Below are positions 1,253 to 6,892 of a stretch of 7,322 nucleotides of DNA, piece by piece. A program made the translations under genes and the position numbers. The stretch is from Anaerolineae bacterium. Its GTDB lineage: Bacteria > Chloroflexota > Anaerolineae > Promineifilales > Promineifilaceae. Positions within the stretch are counted from its first letter, which is position 1. Each line of letters opens with the position of its first letter. The stretch covers positions 1-7,322 of the forward strand of contig JANQGC010000338.1 of NCBI GenBank assembly GCA_028277515.1, given 5' to 3'. A model generated the notes under the pieces. It had not been told where the DNA came from and did no database searches. It saw only the letters and a list, made by a program, of their open reading frames with translations.

Positions 1253-1280
1253 TTGACATACGCCCGGCATCTGCTACAAT
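1253..1280 (+). promoter_or_regulatory. Sigma-70-type promoter of the arg operon
   Basis: TTGACA (1253-1258), a 16-base spacer, then TACAAT (1275-1280) preceded by TGC, which also gives an extended -10 (TGn). The -35 is a perfect consensus and the -10 differs at one position. Transcription should start about 1286-1291. It lies 9 bases after the aspA stop and drives the leader and argC onward. No AT-rich ArgR-box-like palindrome was seen across it. Confidence 0.85.
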
Positions 1281-1290
1281 TCCGCCCGTA

Positions 1291-1365
1291 ATGAAATTGT
1301 TTGCTATTTTACAAGCACCTCGCCGTTTTCGCCGTCGTCGCCCGACCAAAAGGTCTGGTACTTGA
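1291..1365 (+). CDS. Arginine-rich leader peptide of the arg operon (24 aa)
   Basis: ATG at 1291, TGA at 1363-1365. The peptide begins MKLFAILQAP, followed by RRFRRRRP and then TKRSGT. Seven of 24 residues are arginine: codons 11, 12, 14-17 (six CGC/CGT within 1321-1341) and 21 (AGG at 1351). There is no Shine-Dalgarno; the promoter -10 ends at 1280, so the ATG sits within about 0-5 bases of the predicted transcript start, implying leaderless or near-leaderless translation. It lies between a strong promoter and a strong terminator in front of arginine genes, the classic position of an attenuation leader peptide. The likely role is to sense charged tRNA-Arg by ribosome stalling. The alternative, a small basic structural protein, does not explain the competing RNA pairings that overlap its 3' end. 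Confidence 0.8.
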   Translation: MKLFAILQAPRRFRRRRPTKRSGT

Positions 1366-1441
1366 GGTTGTCTGAACTGCAAACGCAATAAGAGAACGCG
1401 ATCGAACCGCCAGACTAGAAGAAAAGTCTGGCGGTTTTTTT
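1340..1441 (+). promoter_or_regulatory. Arginine transcription attenuator (1:2, 2:3, 3:4 pairings)
   Basis: Three alternative RNA pairings can be drawn. Segment 1 (1340-1347) with segment 2 (1352-1359): loop AAAA, four pairs (CGACC side GACC/GGTC), one mismatch, two G-C pairs and a terminal G-U. Segment 2 (1352-1359, GGTCTGGT) with segment 3 (1409-1416, GCCAGACT): eight pairs including two G-U; this antiterminator removes most of the terminator's left arm. Segment 3 with segment 4: the terminator at 1405-1436. A ribosome stalled with the last CGC codons (1336-1341) in its decoding sites should cover segment 1 but end near 1351, freeing segment 2 for antitermination. A ribosome at the stop codon (1363) should cover segment 2 and let the terminator form. 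A second GTCTG copy at 1370-1374 could pair weakly with CAGAC (1411-1415). The model predicts expression during arginine shortage; it is inferred, not tested. Confidence 0.78.
1405..1441 (+). terminator. Intrinsic terminator in the argC leader
   Basis: Perfect 12-bp stem: AACCGCCAGACT (1405-1416) with AGTCTGGCGGTT (1425-1436), an 8-base purine loop (AGAAGAAA), and a T-tract from 1435 to 1441 followed by ATTTT. It lies 28 bases before argC, so it is conditional rather than a gene-end terminator, although it could also stop readthrough from aspA. Confidence 0.92.
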
Positions 1442-1468
1442 ATTTTGGATGGGTACAGGGTCAGGAAA

Positions 1469-2476
1469 ATGATAAAAGCAGGAATTTTTGGCGCAACGGG
1501 TTATACAGGATATGAACTGGTTTCAATCTTGCAGAAGCATCATGAAACGCAGATCTGTTTTGCAACTTCCACCACCAATGTCGGGAAATCGCTGCGCACG
1601 ATTTATCCGGCCGCTCCGAATATCGCCCTGGTGTCCCCGGAAGAGGCGAACCTGGAGGAAACCGATGTCGTTTTCCTTTGCCTGCCCCATGCCACCGCAG
1701 CGCATACGGCCGTCCACGCCTTAGAAGCGGGCAACCGGGTAGTTGATCTGAGCGCCGACTTTCGTCTCAAAGATGCGGCCGTTTACGAATCCTGGTATGG
1801 CACAACCCACCCCGCCCCCGAATTATTAGAGGAAGCGGTCTACGGATTAACCGAATTCGCCCGTGCGGATCTTGCCGGGACACGGCTGGTCGCCAATCCC
1901 GGCTGCTATACGACCACCACCTTGCTCGCTCTACAACCAATTATGGCCGCTCAACTGGAAATAAGTGGAGACATTATCATTGATGCCAAGTCGGGCGTCT
2001 CCGGGGCAGGTCGGGCGCCGCAGAGCAATACCCACTTTGTGCAGGTGGCCGATAATTTTTCACCTTACAAGATCGGCCGCGCCCACCGCCATTTGCCGGA
2101 AAAGGAGCAGGTGATTTCCTGGTGGCATAAAAATCCGCCACAACTGATCTTCAGCCCGCATCTACTTCCGGTTCCCAGGGGCATCCTGGCCAATATCTAT
2201 GTGTCCCTATTGGGCAACTGGTCAGAATCTGAGATACGTAGTTTATACGAGGACACTTATGCCGCAGAAACCTTTGTACAAGTACTGCCCCCTGGAGAAC
2301 TGGCCACACTGGCCCATGTCACCCACAGCAACAACTGTGCCATCTCACTCACCTTTGCCAACCGCATGTTGATTATCACATCGGCTACGGATAACCTGGT
2401 CAAGGGTGCAGCAGGGCAGGCCGTGCAGAATATGAACGTCATGTTTGGGCTAACAGAGGGGGAGGGTTTGAATTAA
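1469..2476 (+). CDS. argC: N-acetyl-gamma-glutamyl-phosphate reductase
   Basis: Third step of arginine synthesis: NADPH-dependent reduction of N-acetylglutamyl-5-phosphate to the semialdehyde, in the cytosol. The protein is 335 residues, typical for the shorter ArgC type. N-terminal NADP-binding Rossmann motif GIFGATGYTGYE (about residues 5-16); VVDLSADFRL; active-site cysteine C146 in NPGCYTTT; SGVSGAGR; then GRAHRHLPE with H206/H208, the catalytic histidine region. The ATG at 1469 is chosen because it gives the usual MIKAGIFGATGYTG beginning and has AGGG (1457-1460) 8 bases upstream; an upstream TTG at 1445 lies almost in the terminator T-tract and adds 8 unconserved residues. It is the first structural gene after the attenuator; argB follows 2 bases after its stop. 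Confidence 0.96.
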   Translation: MIKAGIFGATGYTGYELVSILQKHHETQICFATSTTNVGKSLRTIYPAAPNIALVSPEEANLEETDVVFLCLPHATAAHTAVHALEAGNRVVDLSADFRLKDAAVYESWYGTTHPAPELLEEAVYGLTEFARADLAGTRLVANPGCYTTTTLLALQPIMAAQLEISGDIIIDAKSGVSGAGRAPQSNTHFVQVADNFSPYKIGRAHRHLPEKEQVISWWHKNPPQLIFSPHLLPVPRGILANIYVSLLGNWSESEIRSLYEDTYAAETFVQVLPPGELATLAHVTHSNNCAISLTFANRMLIITSATDNLVKGAAGQAVQNMNVMFGLTEGEGLN

Positions 2477-2478
2477 TC

Positions 2479-3252
2479 ATGCGCGTCTTAAAAGTTGGCG
2501 GCAATGAGCTGAGCGATCCCGATTTTGTCAATCTCCTGGCAAAAAACGTGGCTCGCATCCGAGAAAATACGGGCCGGCCGTTGATTATTGTCCACGGTGG
2601 GGGCAAGGCCATCGCCAGCGTGCAGTCCAGGCTGGGTCTAAAAACAGTTAAAGTAGACGGGCTGCGGGTCACAGATGGGGAGTCATTGGATGTAGCGGAA
2701 ATGGTCCTCTCCGGGCACAGCAATAAGATTTTGGTCAAAGCGCTGCTGGCTGCCGGTCTGGATGCGATCGGCCTCAGCGGGGTTGATGGCGGATTACTGC
2801 GCTGCAAGAAGAAAGTCCATCCGACGGCCGACCTGGGCTTTGTTGGCGAGATCGTCGAGGTACGTCTGGAACTTATCGAACGATTGATCGCCTCAAACCT
2901 GGTCATTGTCCTCTCGCCCATTTCGCTCGGTCTGGATGGCTTGACCTACAATGTCAACGCTGATGAAGCTGCCAGCGCCGTTGCCCTGGCGACGAGTGCG
3001 AGCCAATTAGACTTTATTTCCAATGTCCCCGGCGTCTTGAATGGGCAAAAGATTATCTCCCAGTTAACCACAGGGGAAACAGAGCATTTAATTGAGCAGG
3101 GCATCATCAGCGGCGGAATGATTCCCAAGGTCCGGTCGGCCTTGCAAGCCATTGAACAGGGTGTTAAGCGGACGCGGATTGTTGATCTCGCCGGCCTGGC
3201 CGGCAGCGAGGGCACTGTCTTTCTCAAAAAACCTGCTGAGGTCATTCAATAA
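2479..3252 (+). CDS. argB: Acetylglutamate kinase
   Basis: Second step of the pathway: ATP-dependent phosphorylation of N-acetylglutamate. 257 residues, normal for the amino-acid kinase family without an N-terminal regulatory helix, which in the family usually goes with arginine-insensitive enzymes (inference). Motifs: K5-V-G-G, HGGG at 39-42, GLRVTD with R63 (N-acetylglutamate contact), IGLSGVDGG, YNVNAD with N158/N160, and GGMIPKV with K217, the nucleotide/phosphate lysine. The closely related LysZ kinase was considered, but the GLRVTD segment, the absence of any LysW-like gene here and the argC-argD-argJ context favour ArgB. The start is only 2 bases after the argC stop; a GGAGG at 2461-2465 lies 13 bases upstream, a rather long spacing, so coupling to argC translation is likely. 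Confidence 0.94.
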   Translation: MRVLKVGGNELSDPDFVNLLAKNVARIRENTGRPLIIVHGGGKAIASVQSRLGLKTVKVDGLRVTDGESLDVAEMVLSGHSNKILVKALLAAGLDAIGLSGVDGGLLRCKKKVHPTADLGFVGEIVEVRLELIERLIASNLVIVLSPISLGLDGLTYNVNADEAASAVALATSASQLDFISNVPGVLNGQKIISQLTTGETEHLIEQGIISGGMIPKVRSALQAIEQGVKRTRIVDLAGLAGSEGTVFLKKPAEVIQ

Positions 3253-3261
3253 GGTCAAAGC

Positions 3262-3693
3262 ATGAAGAATCTGACTGTCACCATCAGCCGCTTTAACATC
3301 TCCGATTATGAGGAAGTTTACCATTTATGGCAGAGCTGTTCCGGCATTGGTTTAAGCAGTGCCGACAGCGCGGAGAATATCGCCGCCTACCTGGAACGCA
3401 ATCCGGGTATGAGTTTTATTGCCAGGGCTGAACAGATGATAGTCGGTGCTATTTTAGGTGGCCATGACGGCCGTAGAGGTTATATCCACCACCTGGCCGT
3501 ACGCGACGATTATCGTCGCCAGGGAATCGGCAAGCAGTTGGTTGAACACTGTCTGAACAGATTAAGCGAAGAAGGGATGCAAAAATGCCACCTGTTTATT
3601 TTTCATGAAAACTATAGCGGCATCGCCTTTTGGCAAGATTGTGGCTGGACATTTCGCCAGGATATTCGCGTCATGTCTGCCTATCTCAATTAA
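3262..3693 (+). CDS. GNAT-family N-acetyltransferase, substrate unknown
   Basis: 143 residues, a single GNAT domain. Acetyl-CoA pyrophosphate-binding motif A is visible: AVRDDYRRQGIGKQLV, with R85-R-Q-G-I-G90. A strand with VGAILGGHDGRRGYIHHLAV precedes it, and a YSGIAFWQDCGW motif near the C terminus corresponds to the usual Y/F-x-x-x-G-F/W end of the fold. It resembles small YpeA-like acetyltransferases more than N-acetylglutamate synthases. It sits 9 bases after argB, with AAGG (3251-3254) overlapping the argB stop as its ribosome site, and 44 bases before argD, so it is cotranscribed with arginine genes. A role in the pathway or in modifying its products or enzymes is possible but not shown; the clearer N-acetylglutamate synthase is the separate gene at 4940. 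Confidence 0.85.
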   Translation: MKNLTVTISRFNISDYEEVYHLWQSCSGIGLSSADSAENIAAYLERNPGMSFIARAEQMIVGAILGGHDGRRGYIHHLAVRDDYRRQGIGKQLVEHCLNRLSEEGMQKCHLFIFHENYSGIAFWQDCGWTFRQDIRVMSAYLN

Positions 3694-3737
3694 GTGGTTT
3701 TGCATTAGAATATTTACTTATAAAGGGCTGGATATCA

Positions 3738-4940
3738 ATGGAAACAAAAGAAATAATTCAAAACGAATCAACCTACGTGCTGCAAACCTATGTCCGGCCG
3801 GACATTGTTTTCTCGCATGGCCAAGGGGTTTTCTTGTTTGATTCGGAAGGCAAGCGTTACCTTGATTTTTCTTCAGGGATCGCCGTGACGGTCCTGGGAC
3901 ACAGCGACGAGGGGTGGGTCATCGCCGTACAGGACCAGGCCAGCAAGCTGGTTCATGTTAGCAACCTCTATCACACCGCCCCCCATGCCGCCCTGGCTAA
4001 ACGTCTGGTTGAACATTCCTTTGCTGATAAGGTCTATTTCTGCAATTCCGGCGCGGAAGCTAATGAAGCGGCGATCAAGTTCGGCCGTAAATACGCTCAG
4101 CAAACCGCGAACAATCCGCAGAAAACAGAAATCGTCGCTTTTTCCGGCGGCTTTCACGGCCGAACAATGGGTGCCTTAGCTGTTACCCACAAAGCCAAGT
4201 ATCGCGATCCATTTCGGCCGCTCATGCCAGGCGTCACTTTCGCACCTTACAATGATTTGCAAGCGGCCGAACAAGCGATCAATGACAACACCTGCGCCGT
4301 GATTGTCGAGCCGGTGCAAGGGGAAGGCGGCGTGCACCCGGCCGATAAGGAATTCTTGCAGGGACTGCGCGGGCTTTGTGACCAATACCAGGTTACTTTG
4401 ATCTTCGACGAGGTGCAGTGCGGCCTTGGCCGGACCGGCACGTTGTGGGCTTATGAAGCATATGATGTGACGCCGGATATCATGACCCTGGCCAAGCCTC
4501 TGGCCGGGGGCCTGCCCATCGGCGCAACCCTGGTTACTAAGGCTATTGCTTCTATTATCAAACCCGGCGACCACGGTAGCACCTTCGCCGCCGGCCCTCT
4601 TGTCTGCCGCGCTGCGGAGGCGGTCTTTGACCGGGTTAACAATCCCCAATTTTTAGCCCAGGTGCGGGCAAATGCCGCATATTTGCACCACCGCCTGACA
4701 ACATTGGAGCATGACCCAATCGTCGAAGTACGTTCTGCCGGCTACCTGGTCGGTGTAGAGATGAAAATGCCCGTCGCGCCCCTGGTTGATGCCGCCCGGA
4801 ACCAGGGATTGATCGTGCTCAATGCCGGTGACAATGTCCTGCGTCTGGCACCACCACTCATCGCCGGGAAAGCAGAAATCGACCAGGCCGTCGGCATTAT
4901 TTCATCCTGTTTAGATGACCTGGAGAGCACAGAAAGCTGA
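3738..4940 (+). CDS. argD: Acetylornithine aminotransferase
   Basis: PLP-dependent class III aminotransferase, 400 residues, converting N-acetylglutamate semialdehyde and glutamate to N-acetylornithine. Motifs: [33 protein letters not shown] (cofactor phosphate region), [30 protein letters not shown] (aspartate that contacts the pyridine nitrogen), [14 protein letters not shown] with K253 as Schiff-base lysine, and [15 protein letters not shown], where family members usually have GGNP in place of AAGP. The ATG at 3738 gives the normal length and has AAGGG (3723-3727) 10 bases before it; in-frame codons reach back to 3630 inside the GNAT gene but that extension is not family-like. Its TGA shares one base with the ATG of the next gene (TGATG at 4938-4942), indicating translational coupling. 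The same enzyme family also includes ornithine and succinyldiaminopimelate aminotransferases; context favours argD. Confidence 0.94.
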
Positions 4941-5509
4941 TGAATATTCGCCCCGCCCGGCCGAGTGATGTCCCGGCCATTGCCCAACTGGTCGCCGAAT
5001 ATGTCCGGCGGGGAGACTTGCTGCCACGCACGGCCGAATCAGTGCAGCAGAATTTGCAGGATTGGCTGGTCGGCATTGACGCCGACAATGATCTCGTTGC
5101 CTGTGTAAGTTTACAACGTTATACACCTGAACTGGCCGAAGTGCGCTCCCTGGCCGTTTCCGACAAAGCCAAAGGGCAGGGTTATGGCCGGATCATTGTC
5201 AAGGCGCTCATCGGCGAAGCCAGGATTCGTAACATTCCCACTCTCTTTGCTTTAACGCGCGTTGTACCCTTCTTTCACAAGTTGGGATTTCAGACAACCG
5301 TCAAAGAGCGTTTTCCGGAAAAAGTATGGCGCGACTGCCAGGCTTGCCCGGTCTTCGACAACTGTGATGAAACGGCCGTTTATATGCACCTGACCCCCGT
5401 TCAACCGAATGCTTATATTCCCATTCCCATTCCCGTGCGCGCTCGAGCCGCCAACCTAAGCATAGGATCAATTAATCTAGCATTGCCCAATGAAAAAGGA
5501 GAATTACCC
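4940..5509 (+). CDS. argA: Short (GNAT-type) N-acetylglutamate synthase, no own stop codon
   Basis: First committed step: acetyl-CoA plus glutamate to N-acetylglutamate. The GNAT domain spans about residues 1-151. It begins [16 protein letters not shown], has [20 protein letters not shown], the acetyl-CoA motif K78-G-Q-G-Y-G83, [16 protein letters not shown], and a cysteine cluster C133-x2-C136-x5-C142 followed by DETA. These match the stand-alone short synthases and the C-terminal domain of E. coli ArgA (from memory), not its kinase-like N-terminal half, which is absent. The start overlaps the argD stop by one base. Unusually, the frame has no stop after the domain: 39 linker residues (152-190) run in frame into the argG ATG, giving a potential 611-residue ArgA-ArgG protein ending at 6775. 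The 5509 end given here is the domain boundary, not a stop. Confidence 0.82.
5417..5434 (+). repeat. Hexanucleotide tandem repeat (ATTCCC)x3
   Basis: Three perfect head-to-tail copies of ATTCCC, encoding Ile-Pro three times in the ArgA-ArgG linker. Being a multiple of three, copy-number change would keep the frame. Confidence 0.9.
5496..5501 (+). promoter_or_regulatory. Strong Shine-Dalgarno for argG
   Basis: AAGGAG at 5496-5501, 8 bases before the ATG at 5510, an ideal site and spacing. It argues that ArgG is made from its own start even though the upstream argA frame is open through it. Confidence 0.85.
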
Positions 5510-6775
5510 ATGTCAAAAGAAACTGTAAACAAAGTCGTCCTGGCCTATTCCGGCGGATTGGACACCTCGGTGATCGTGCCCTGGCTGCGCGAGAATTATG
5601 GCTGCGAGGTCATCTGTTTCTGCGCCGATATCGGCCAGGGAGACGAAGAATTAGAAGGGTTAAAAGAGAAAGCCCTGGCCAGCGGCGCCAGCAAGGTTTA
5701 TGTCGAAGATTTACGCCACGAATTCGCCAAGGATTTCCTTTTTCCCTTAGTGCAGTCCGGCGCTATCTACGAACGGCGCTATTTGTTAGGCACTTCCGTA
5801 GCCCGGCCATTGATCGCTAAATGGCAGGTGGCCATTGCCGAAATGGAAGGAGCGGATGCGGTAGCTCATGGCGCGACAGGAAAAGGTAATGATCAAGTGC
5901 GCTTTGAATTGACCTACAAGGCGCTCAACCCGACTTTAAAAGTGATCGCGCCCTGGCGGGAGTGGGATATCCGCTCCCGTGAAGATGCTCTTGTTTATGC
6001 CCGTAAACATAATGTGCCCGTTGTACACAGTGAAAAATCAATCTACAGCCGGGATGCCAATCTATGGCACACGTCACATGAAGGCGGCATCCTGGAAGAT
6101 CCGGCCAATGAGCCGGAAGAATCCATGTTCCTGATTTCAAACTCGCCGGAAAATGCACCTGATGAGCCGGAAGTGGTCAAGATCGATATTGAAAAAGGGG
6201 TTCCGGTGGCTGTGAATGATGTGCTGCTACCACCGGCATCAATTATCGAAACCTTGAATGAAATCGGGGCTAAGCACGGCATCGGCCGTGTCGACCTGGT
6301 TGAAAACCGGCTGGTGGGCATGAAATCGCGTGGTGTATATGAGACGCCGGGCGGCACTATCCTCTATGCTGCCCAACGTGAGCTGGAATCACTCTGTTTG
6401 GACCGTGACACCAGCCATTACAAAGAGCAGGTTGGCGTGCGCTACGCGGAACTGGTTTACTTCGGCAAATGGTACCATTCGCTGCGCGAAGCGCTGCAAG
6501 CGTTCATCGACGTTACCCAGGAAACAGTCACCGGCTGGGTCAAGCTGAAACTATACAAGGGTAATGTGATCGTCGTCGGCCGTTCCAGCTCCAACAGCCT
6601 GTATCGTGAAGATTTTGCCACCTTCGGCCAGGAAGATGTCTATGATCAGCAGGACGCCGTGGGCTTCATCACACTCTTTGGATTGCAAATGAAAGTGAAA
6701 GCTATGATGGAAGTGAGTGACGGCGGCCGTACCCATTACGCCGCCCCTGATTATTCTAAATTCAAGCGCGATTAA
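5510..6775 (+). CDS. argG: Argininosuccinate synthase
   Basis: Seventh step of arginine synthesis: ATP-dependent condensation of citrulline and aspartate to argininosuccinate; cytosolic homotetramer in the family. 421 residues from the ATG at 5510, the usual length of about 400. ATP-binding P-loop AYSGGLDTS (residues 12-20), [22 protein letters not shown], and the family signature [13 protein letters not shown] (121-133); [25 protein letters not shown]. The start is chosen for the conserved N terminus ([16 protein letters not shown]) and the perfect Shine-Dalgarno 8 bases upstream. The reading frame is nevertheless open back to the argA ATG at 4940, so a 611-residue ArgA-ArgG fusion could also be produced by ribosomes finishing argA. 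Followed by a 173-base spacer before argJ. Confidence 0.95.
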
Positions 6776-6788
6776 GTAAATATACGAA

Positions 6789-6849
6789 AGATTTGTCAAT
6801 TTTTATTTTCTTGTACCTCTGGAAATTCCACAGAAAAATTGACAAATCT
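6789..6849. repeat. Perfect 16-bp inverted repeat with inner hairpin
   Basis: AGATTTGTCAATTTTT (6789-6804) and AAAAATTGACAAATCT (6834-6849) are exact reverse complements separated by 29 bases. The spacer itself contains GGAAATTCC (6821-6829) and can form a small nested hairpin (6817-6822 with 6828-6833, one mismatch). There is no T-tract after the right arm on the + strand, so it is not a typical terminator of argG. Outward-facing TTGACA lies in both arms. No clear target-site duplication flanks it. It could be a structured mRNA element, an operator-like palindrome, or a small MITE/REP-like insertion. Confidence 0.85.
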
Positions 6850-6867
6850 AATGCAAAACTACTTAAT
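6839..6867 (+). promoter_or_regulatory. Possible weak promoter upstream of argJ
   Basis: TTGACA (6839-6844) inside the right arm of the inverted repeat, 17-base spacer, then CTTAAT (6862-6867), which matches four of six -10 positions but lacks the important T and A at its 5' end. Would give argJ a leader of about 75 bases. Weak evidence. Confidence 0.25.
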
Positions 6868-6892
6868 AACGTTTACTGGCCTTTCTGTTAAA

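Follow-up and report, generated by a model that had tools for sequence, protein, structure and literature searches.

A predicted Arg-codon transcription attenuator in the argC leader of Anaerolineae and codon-swapped relatives of its RNA core

The arginine operon in the stretch of Anaerolineae DNA analysed here (the window, 7.3 kb) is very probably controlled by a ribosome-mediated transcription attenuator of the his/trp type, one that would sense charged arginyl-tRNA and set expression of argC-argB-GNAT-argD-argG. Computational analysis establishes the anatomy of this leader, its conservation, its codon specificity, its co-varying pairings and its folding behind a modelled ribosome. In the mechanism that we propose, transcription from a promoter at positions 1253-1280 would begin a few bases before the leader ATG. 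When Arg-tRNA is ample, the translating ribosome is expected to cross six clustered CGC/CGT codons, reach the stop codon and cover segment 2 of the leader RNA, upon which segment 3 would pair with segment 4 and RNA polymerase would terminate near position 1440. When Arg-tRNA is scarce, the ribosome would halt on the Arg run and block the pairing of segment 1, segment 2 would capture segment 3, no terminator would form and the operon would be transcribed. RNA that is not translated should form both the 1:2 and the 3:4 hairpins, leaving the operon off. This scheme involves a transcription start site, coupling of transcription with translation, termination in vivo and a response to arginine, all of which we infer from the elements described below. 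The initial annotation of this DNA had read the region as the his/trp logic applied to arginine. Our analysis supports that reading and shows it to be wider than was claimed, as such leaders are found class-wide before argC, also before argG and argD, and in an Ala version before alaS.

The argC leader and its predicted switch

The window is an arginine operon preceded by the 3' end part of an aspartase/fumarase-family gene (17-1243, stop at 1243). The first gene under the proposed control is argC (1469-2476, plus strand; TIGR01850, 378 bits versus a cut-off of 233.6), whose product is best matched by proteins of Chloroflexi/Chloroflexota MAGs (71% identity) and of Anaerolineae (67-69%). On the same strand follow argB (2479-3252; TIGR00761), a GNAT acetyltransferase gene (3262-3693; PF00583, with NF002959 below its cut-off), argD (3738-4940; TIGR00707) and a GNAT domain fused in frame to argG (4940-6775; TIGR00032/NF001770), with the start of argJ after a gap downstream of the fusion. 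In the fusion protein NF001770 covers residues 195-591 and a GNAT match covers residues 1-151, the best model there being NF005840 (N-acetyltransferase). Beginning at the argG end is a 41-nt inverted repeat (6764-6874; 76% complementary, 29-nt gap), and a 21-nt, 95% copy of it lies in the opposite orientation at the end of the first GNAT gene (3689-3720). These repeats are perhaps remnants of a small mobile element.

Upstream of the leader is a sigma-70-type promoter (1253-1280, plus strand) made up of TTGACA (1253-1258), 16 nt and TACAAT (1275-1280), with TG before the -10 element. It was described at the outset as near-consensus, and the promoter scan bears this out with 11/12 matches. Transcription usually starts about 7 nt after the -10 element, which in the window ends 10 nt 5' of the leader ATG. 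A promoter with at least 9/12 matches stands just before the frame in 60 of the 94 leaders examined, and in half of these (30/60) the -10 element ends 6-10 nt before an in-frame start. Given this spacing and the usual start position, such leaders, that of the window included, are probably nearly leaderless, which is a prediction from sequence.

The leader frame is enriched in codons for the amino acid that the operon makes. It encodes the putative peptide MKLFAILQAPRRFRRRRPTKRSGT* (1291-1365, plus strand, near-leaderless by prediction) and comprises 24 codons, with Arg at codons 11, 12, 14, 15, 16, 17 and 21. Translation of 1291-1365 thus reproduces the seven Arg codons counted earlier, six of them within 21 bases. 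The candidate sensor is the run of codons 11-17 (CGC CGT TTT CGC CGT CGT CGC; 1321-1341, plus strand). Arg accounts for 4.7% of the codons in six window genes, and from the codon use of the window genes the probability of at least six Arg in a given seven-codon run is about 7e-8.

An intrinsic terminator lies between this frame and argC. The scan places it at 1404-1437 with a T-tract (1434-1444, plus strand), and core pairing agrees with the 12-bp stem that had been described. Its left arm is segment 3 (1405-1416, plus strand) and its right arm is segment 4 (1425-1436, plus strand), the 12-bp core being AACCGCCAGACT/AGTCTGGCGGTT. Segment 2, GGTCTGGT (1352-1359, plus strand), overlaps the end of the leader frame and has two potential partners. 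As antiterminator, it pairs with the terminator left arm at 1409-1416, as first proposed; eight pairs form, two of them G-U, and seven of the eight (1410-1416) were counted in the alignment described below. The other partner is segment 1 (1341-1347, with G1340; plus strand), which would act as anti-antiterminator; this pairing of 1340-1347 with 1352-1359 also holds, but with one C-U mismatch in the window. The whole region 1253-1468 folds better than shuffles (z -2.61; 3/200 shuffles as good). As the total found by the terminator/promoter scan in the window is no higher than in shuffles, the weight of the argument rests on the combination of these elements and on their conservation.

The window differs in one detail from relatives with the same type of leader. 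Its 1:2 loop (within 1348-1366) is one base longer than in most relatives, which shifts the frame, so that the stop codon, usually about 21 nt downstream of the first base of segment 2, comes 10 nt earlier. The predicted outcome of the switch is unchanged by this earlier stop.

The switch was modelled by folding the RNA that has emerged past the ribosome before segment 4 exists, with the front edge of the ribosome placed 12 nt beyond the first base of the A site, as toeprint work indicates. Wherever the ribosome stalls among the six clustered Arg codons of the window, segments 2 and 3 form ten pairs; with the ribosome at the stop codon there are no 2:3 pairs, and the free RNA forms the 1:2 hairpin. 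The geometry claimed for stalling, with antiterminator on Arg codons and none at the stop, is thereby reproduced by folding. Among 90 leaders, 87 form the antiterminator with a stall 9-25 nt before segment 2, and it is lost at the stop codon in 75 and kept in 15, both behaviors being right in 72. For free RNA, the main pairing partner of segment 2 lies upstream in only 64 of 97 leaders.

This result is partly built in, because segment 2 had been located by its complementarity to the terminator. The folding was therefore repeated without that choice and with dinucleotide shuffles. When the ribosome stalls on the middle Arg of the cluster, an uninterrupted helix of at least 7 bp to segment 3 forms in 60/97 leaders as compared with 10.7% of dinucleotide shuffles; at a threshold of at least 5 bp the figures are 80/97 and 47.1%. 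For the window itself the helix is 8 bp and is matched by 0/20 of its shuffles. Leaders of type L101 did no better than their own shuffles in this test. The shuffle control answers the circularity of the segment 2 choice only partly. Within that limit, folding has a stall favoring the antiterminator and a ribosome at the stop codon favoring the terminator.

Conservation and covariation of leaders before arginine genes

The scan for similar leaders took in the 350 nt upstream of argC from 176 distinct regions: the Chloroflexota set contributes 128 (window included, as well as L029, titled Gracilibacteria) and other phyla contribute 48; 15 duplicate upstreams and L031, which has no upstream, were left out. 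A region passed if it held a frame of 8-50 codons with at least four Arg in eight codons, followed by a terminator. For tests on the leaders themselves we dropped 12 of the 128 regions, which have no detectable terminator or have N in the stretch, and leaders with at most two Arg close to segment 2, so that 97, 94 or 90 leaders were used depending on the test.

An Arg-rich frame followed by a terminator precedes argC in 75/128 regions of the Chloroflexota set (106/128 at three or more Arg, 23/128 at five or more); the next amino acid, Leu, reaches 12/128 at four or more and 49/128 at three or more. The loose scan at three or more Arg is failed by 22 of the 128 upstreams. Before other long ORFs in 30 of these Chloroflexota-set loci the scan passes 6/145 regions, three of which (L008, L011 and L020) are argC leaders that escaped the filter, and in the 450 nt before alaS in the same class four or more Arg are found in 1/47. 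Seven of the 48 argC upstreams from other phyla pass at four or more Arg; in four of these (L039, L049, L050 and L076) the frame looks like what we take to be the C-terminus of ribosomal protein S9, and the remaining passes are L041, L044 and L046.

The leader is present in all 12 genomes closest by ArgC, in 11 before argC and in one before argD. The latter genome (L003/G136) has none before argC (L003/L084), and carries MNFVNQLPRRFRRRQITRSGFWG* with a full switch before argD (L200:230-1405, minus strand). Thus, the leader appears to have stayed with an arginine gene. Arg leaders also stand before argG in L239, L241 and L264, and a family model identifies the gene as argG in L239 and L264. Sampling across the phylum gave 43 scored argC upstreams, of which 13 pass at three or more Arg. 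One of the 13 (L272) belongs to the class itself; eight upstreams (L267, L268 and L275-L280) are convincing by eye, for example with the stretch LRLRRPRTNEVRW within the frame. Their sequences suggest a second lineage with such leaders across the phylum. The other 30 of the 43 are without a leader, L282, L283 and L285 being among those scored so.

Segment pairing was followed in an alignment of 26 type-A leaders. These derive from 31 leaders typed by motif, from which L002 (a near-copy of L001), L100, L105, L114, L132 and L145 were removed and to which L117 was added. Ten of the 26, besides the window, are among the 12 relatives taken by ArgC alone; the alignment as a whole was chosen partly by its GTCTGG/CCAGAC motif. 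GTCTGG is invariant in the 26 leaders, a set partly chosen by that motif, and the antiterminator forms seven of seven 2:3 pairs in 26/26. This full conservation is in part selected, since the leaders were picked partly by motif. Three aligned leaders carry a compensating G-C to A-U double change in the 2:3 helix. For the terminator together with the 1:2 hairpin, 28 double-changed cells were counted as compared with 5.0 in shuffles, 95.3% of cells being paired; double changes affect nine of the 11 counted terminator pairs, and 1:2 alone pairs in 91.7% of cells. Relatives therefore retain a 1:2 hairpin that competes with the antiterminator and an antiterminator that excludes the terminator.

More distant leaders have other sequences in segments 2 and 3, for example GTCTGGATAG with CTCCAGAC and CGTGTGTCCGG with CTGACACACGG, and these are still complementary. 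When each segment 2 region was scored on unrelated terminators, the terminator of the same leader gave a better match than at least 95% of them in 45/97 leaders, where about five are expected. Compared with shuffles of the leader itself, the real match ranked above at least 95% in 42/97, the other 55 not doing so. Chains of 6-mers held in common connect 96 of the 97 terminators, so that the swap counts are not independent, and no count was corrected for shared ancestry. A swap test on whole leaders is weaker (42/116 in the best 5%) than this focused one. The alignment of relatives that had been put forward as a check thus turned up all that it was to look for, namely a conserved Arg-rich mini-frame and the 1:2, 2:3 and 3:4 pairings, and relatives lacking both the Arg codons and the terminator, which would have spoken against the idea, are not the pattern observed.

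Codon identity, codon-swapped leaders and other explanations

Over 116 leaders, the density of Arg triplets peaks 12-29 nt before segment 2. With codons within 6 nt of segment 2 excluded, more than one Arg codon is used in 87/97 leaders and CGN is mixed with AGR in 32/97; with all codons counted these figures become 90/97 and 36/97. In one leader sequence type AGG makes up 49 of the 88 codons for Arg. The amino acid at these positions is retained though its codons vary, and on this comparative evidence it is the codon that is read. The leader peptides otherwise differ widely among relatives, except for the Arg run and the residues forced by segments 1 and 2.

A covariance model, R1, was built from argC leaders alone and used to search 298 genomes from the class that contains G001, a class that appears to be Anaerolineae in the wide sense. 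Matches at E of 0.01 or below occur in 110/298 genomes, many of the weak ones being ordinary terminators. Among the match places listed, 40 stretches were inspected, which amount to 39 distinct places (L232 and L265 counting as one), a few of them argC itself. The Arg leaders before argG are among the R1 matches. The argC-type core CCAGACC/GGTCTGG was found with runs of Ala before alaS in L227, L228, L229, L231, L233, L234, L235 and L238. Examples are MKQSCVISAAAAAQTSGLVTSAA (L229) and MNQFSSIIQNSAAAAAGQTSGLDRLCA (L235), which are strong R1 matches in genomes near the window, and alaS was confirmed by family model in all four cases tested (L227, L231, L235 and L238). The Ala leaders may be duplicates of the arginine attenuator in which the codon run was exchanged. 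Weaker cases before alaS (L232/L265 and L236) have low Ala content and other DNA in between, and in L230 the Ala leader ends at the contig end. Between the weak Ala-type leader and alaS in L265 we noted, by eye, a small antitoxin-like and a PIN-toxin-like gene.

A separate scan took 50 alaS upstreams from 291 genomes with alaS; three were too short, and of the 47 scored eight have at least three Ala and four have at least four, with about five of the eight convincing. Three of the eight passes (L337, L341 and L345) are chance-like. On these counts Ala leaders before alaS throughout the class were rejected. That so few alaS upstreams pass indicates that the Ala version is limited to near kin of the window.

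Two weaker R1 matches (E 2.6e-6 and 8.9e-6; L242 and L258) lie before genes for chorismate mutase. Each is a Phe/Tyr-rich leader, with a peptide that begins MLKSARWFAYFYFYGFRNS, followed by a terminator before type I chorismate mutase, aroH (L242:240-450 and L258:197-400); the family was confirmed in L242. Further matches with some Lys codons stand before LysX genes in L263 (MFNLTVVKKSKKRTPA) and L253 (MPTTTKRTIKPDTLSG), at E 2.5e-7 and 7e-5. The Lys codon match is uncertain and is the least certain of the re-use cases. A type-A-like terminator with a short frame precedes a LysE-type exporter gene (PF01810) in L237, with no clear codon run. Matches in L240, L243, L246-L252, L254-L257 and L259-L262 (E about 2e-7 to 1e-3) were set aside as ordinary terminators without a clear cognate frame.

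The same RNA core with Ala in place of Arg points to codon sensing, and it argues against both an arrest peptide and a riboswitch. An arrest peptide would have the basic nascent chain (RRFRRRR) stall the ribosome, perhaps with arginine as its ligand. Polybasic runs can slow ribosomes, and the leader of Salmonella speF conserves the peptide core HIRRT*HIMM, in which two codons are for Arg, according to the accessible part of its description (PMC6386406). No conserved peptide sequence is found here; the peptides of relatives vary except in the Arg run and the positions that segments 1 and 2 force, and a basic-peptide effect cannot explain Ala runs joined to the same core before alaS. We consider this explanation very unlikely.

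Slightly less probable still is control of the terminator by a T-box or metabolite riboswitch, with an incidental mini-frame. The motif GGTGGNACC, which we take to be that of T-boxes, does not occur on the plus strand of the window, and neither the window nor any of the 20 sources with related leaders (window included) contains a match at the gathering score of an Rfam family, Rfam 15 offering no family that matches the leader. Neither an Rfam T-box match nor T-box sequence was thus found, and the keeping of Arg in frame through changes of codon also speaks against a riboswitch. On the other side, one comparative paper, in the portion available, names T-boxes as controlling arginine genes of other bacteria (PMC1262725).

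Codon-sensing attenuation also has to be weighed against two accounts that we rate as scarcely credible. One holds that the terminator, 160 nt after the stop codon (1243) of the aspartase/fumarase-family gene, merely ends that upstream lyase transcript and that the mini-frame is there by chance, against which stand the order of frame and terminator kept before argC in most class members, the promoter of at least 9/12 matches just before the frame in 60/94 leaders, and the co-variation of segment 2 with the terminator. The other, given no greater weight, is that an ArgR repressor at the promoter controls the operon and that attenuation is minor. ArgR is the usual regulator elsewhere. The ArgR N-terminal family, however, is matched at E of 0.001 or below in only 8/298 class genomes and over cut-off in 3/298, all three of these matches being partial and close to the cut-off, and the C-terminal arginine-binding family is matched in 0/199 class genomes. 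The same searches in control genomes gave matches over cut-off in 8/14 for each family. ArgR appears to be practically missing from the class; its absence in the window organism we infer from kin, many of them drafts. In these relatives the attenuator seems to take the place that an arginine repressor usually has.

A broader view is somewhat more likely than not, though held with distinctly less confidence than the attenuator of the window. In it, ArgR-less Chloroflexota of this class use Arg-codon attenuation for arginine biosynthesis, and the RNA core has been copied and re-specified by exchange of its codon run, with Arg before argC, argD and argG, Ala before alaS, a Phe/Tyr-rich frame before a chorismate mutase and possibly Lys before the LysW/LysX lysine genes.

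Relation to known attenuators and biological meaning

Arginine operons are usually thought to be controlled by repressors or T-boxes. The mechanism that we propose is itself known. What would be new is its Arg specificity for arginine's own biosynthesis genes, its class-wide use without ArgR and the existence of codon-swapped relatives. With his/trp-type attenuators the window shares a run of cognate codons, a segment 2 that chooses segment 1 or 3, and a 3:4 terminator before the first gene. It differs from them in sensing arginine, in belonging to Chloroflexota and in a leader start nearly at the predicted transcript start, and in the window group the 1:2 element forms a tight hairpin of 7 bp, its loop spanning about 3-4 nt in most members. 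The attenuated operons of E. coli and Salmonella listed in the available part of one account are trp, his, leu, thr, ilvGMEDA, ilvBN and pheA, with no arg operon in that list (PMC1183508).

Among the leader-peptide attenuators of Actinobacteria, several in Streptomyces lividans are leaderless, and this species also has AlaL before alaS (PMC8079986). In the excerpt available, these resemble the window and its relatives in having frames at the transcript start and an Ala-rich leader before alaS; they differ in that the eight listed there (two Leu, two Trp, Ala, Ile, Met and Thr) include none for Arg (PMC8079986). The accessible portion of another study reports no conserved RNA structures upstream of Actinobacteria arginine operons and names T-boxes for arginine elsewhere (PMC1262725).

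Two other leaders are known in which Arg codons report on arginine. In the Salmonella speF leader, orf34 senses arginine through Arg codons in a short upstream frame; as far as its available text goes, it does so with two consecutive Arg codons, serves an ornithine decarboxylase and works through Rho, RNase G and access to the ribosome binding site (PMC6386406). Unlike the window, it is described there with neither an arginine biosynthesis operon nor a route by intrinsic terminator (PMC6386406). In Staphylococcus aureus rbfL, leader-peptide Arg codons likewise report arginine supply; in contrast, its control, in the part of the paper at hand, is translational and covers the ribosome binding site, short arginine lowers expression and the target is a biofilm regulator (PMC13009471). 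The cysS uORFC-8-2 motif, in the available excerpt, is like the present case a leader-peptide attenuator predicted by comparative genomics, differing in that it concerns cysteine and Rhodobacterales (PMC8632094). Partial texts further describe a leader peptide at Pseudomonas carA with possible pyrimidine-linked attenuation (PMC4997734) and a 2026 M. tuberculosis study in whose excerpt arginine is not mentioned (PMC13236596). A 2010 survey, in its accessible part, knows of leader-peptide attenuation in Proteobacteria and Actinobacteria only, apart from the Firmicutes example that it adds itself (PMC2965389).

Among the matches listed in a search of open-access literature, no arginine biosynthesis operon is described with a leader-peptide transcription attenuator, older subscription papers being a place where this could differ, and we found no open-access paper naming Chloroflexi or Anaerolineae with such attenuators. 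The present leaders would thus place leader-peptide attenuation in another phylum. A class-wide arginine attenuator without ArgR would answer how these largely uncultured bacteria can sense arginine. If the copying and re-specification of its core is true, the leader is a natural modular sensor in which the codon cassette alone sets the amino acid. Leaders in which the same core carries different codon runs offer clean natural material for testing codon sensing, as well as a template for reporters of amino acids.
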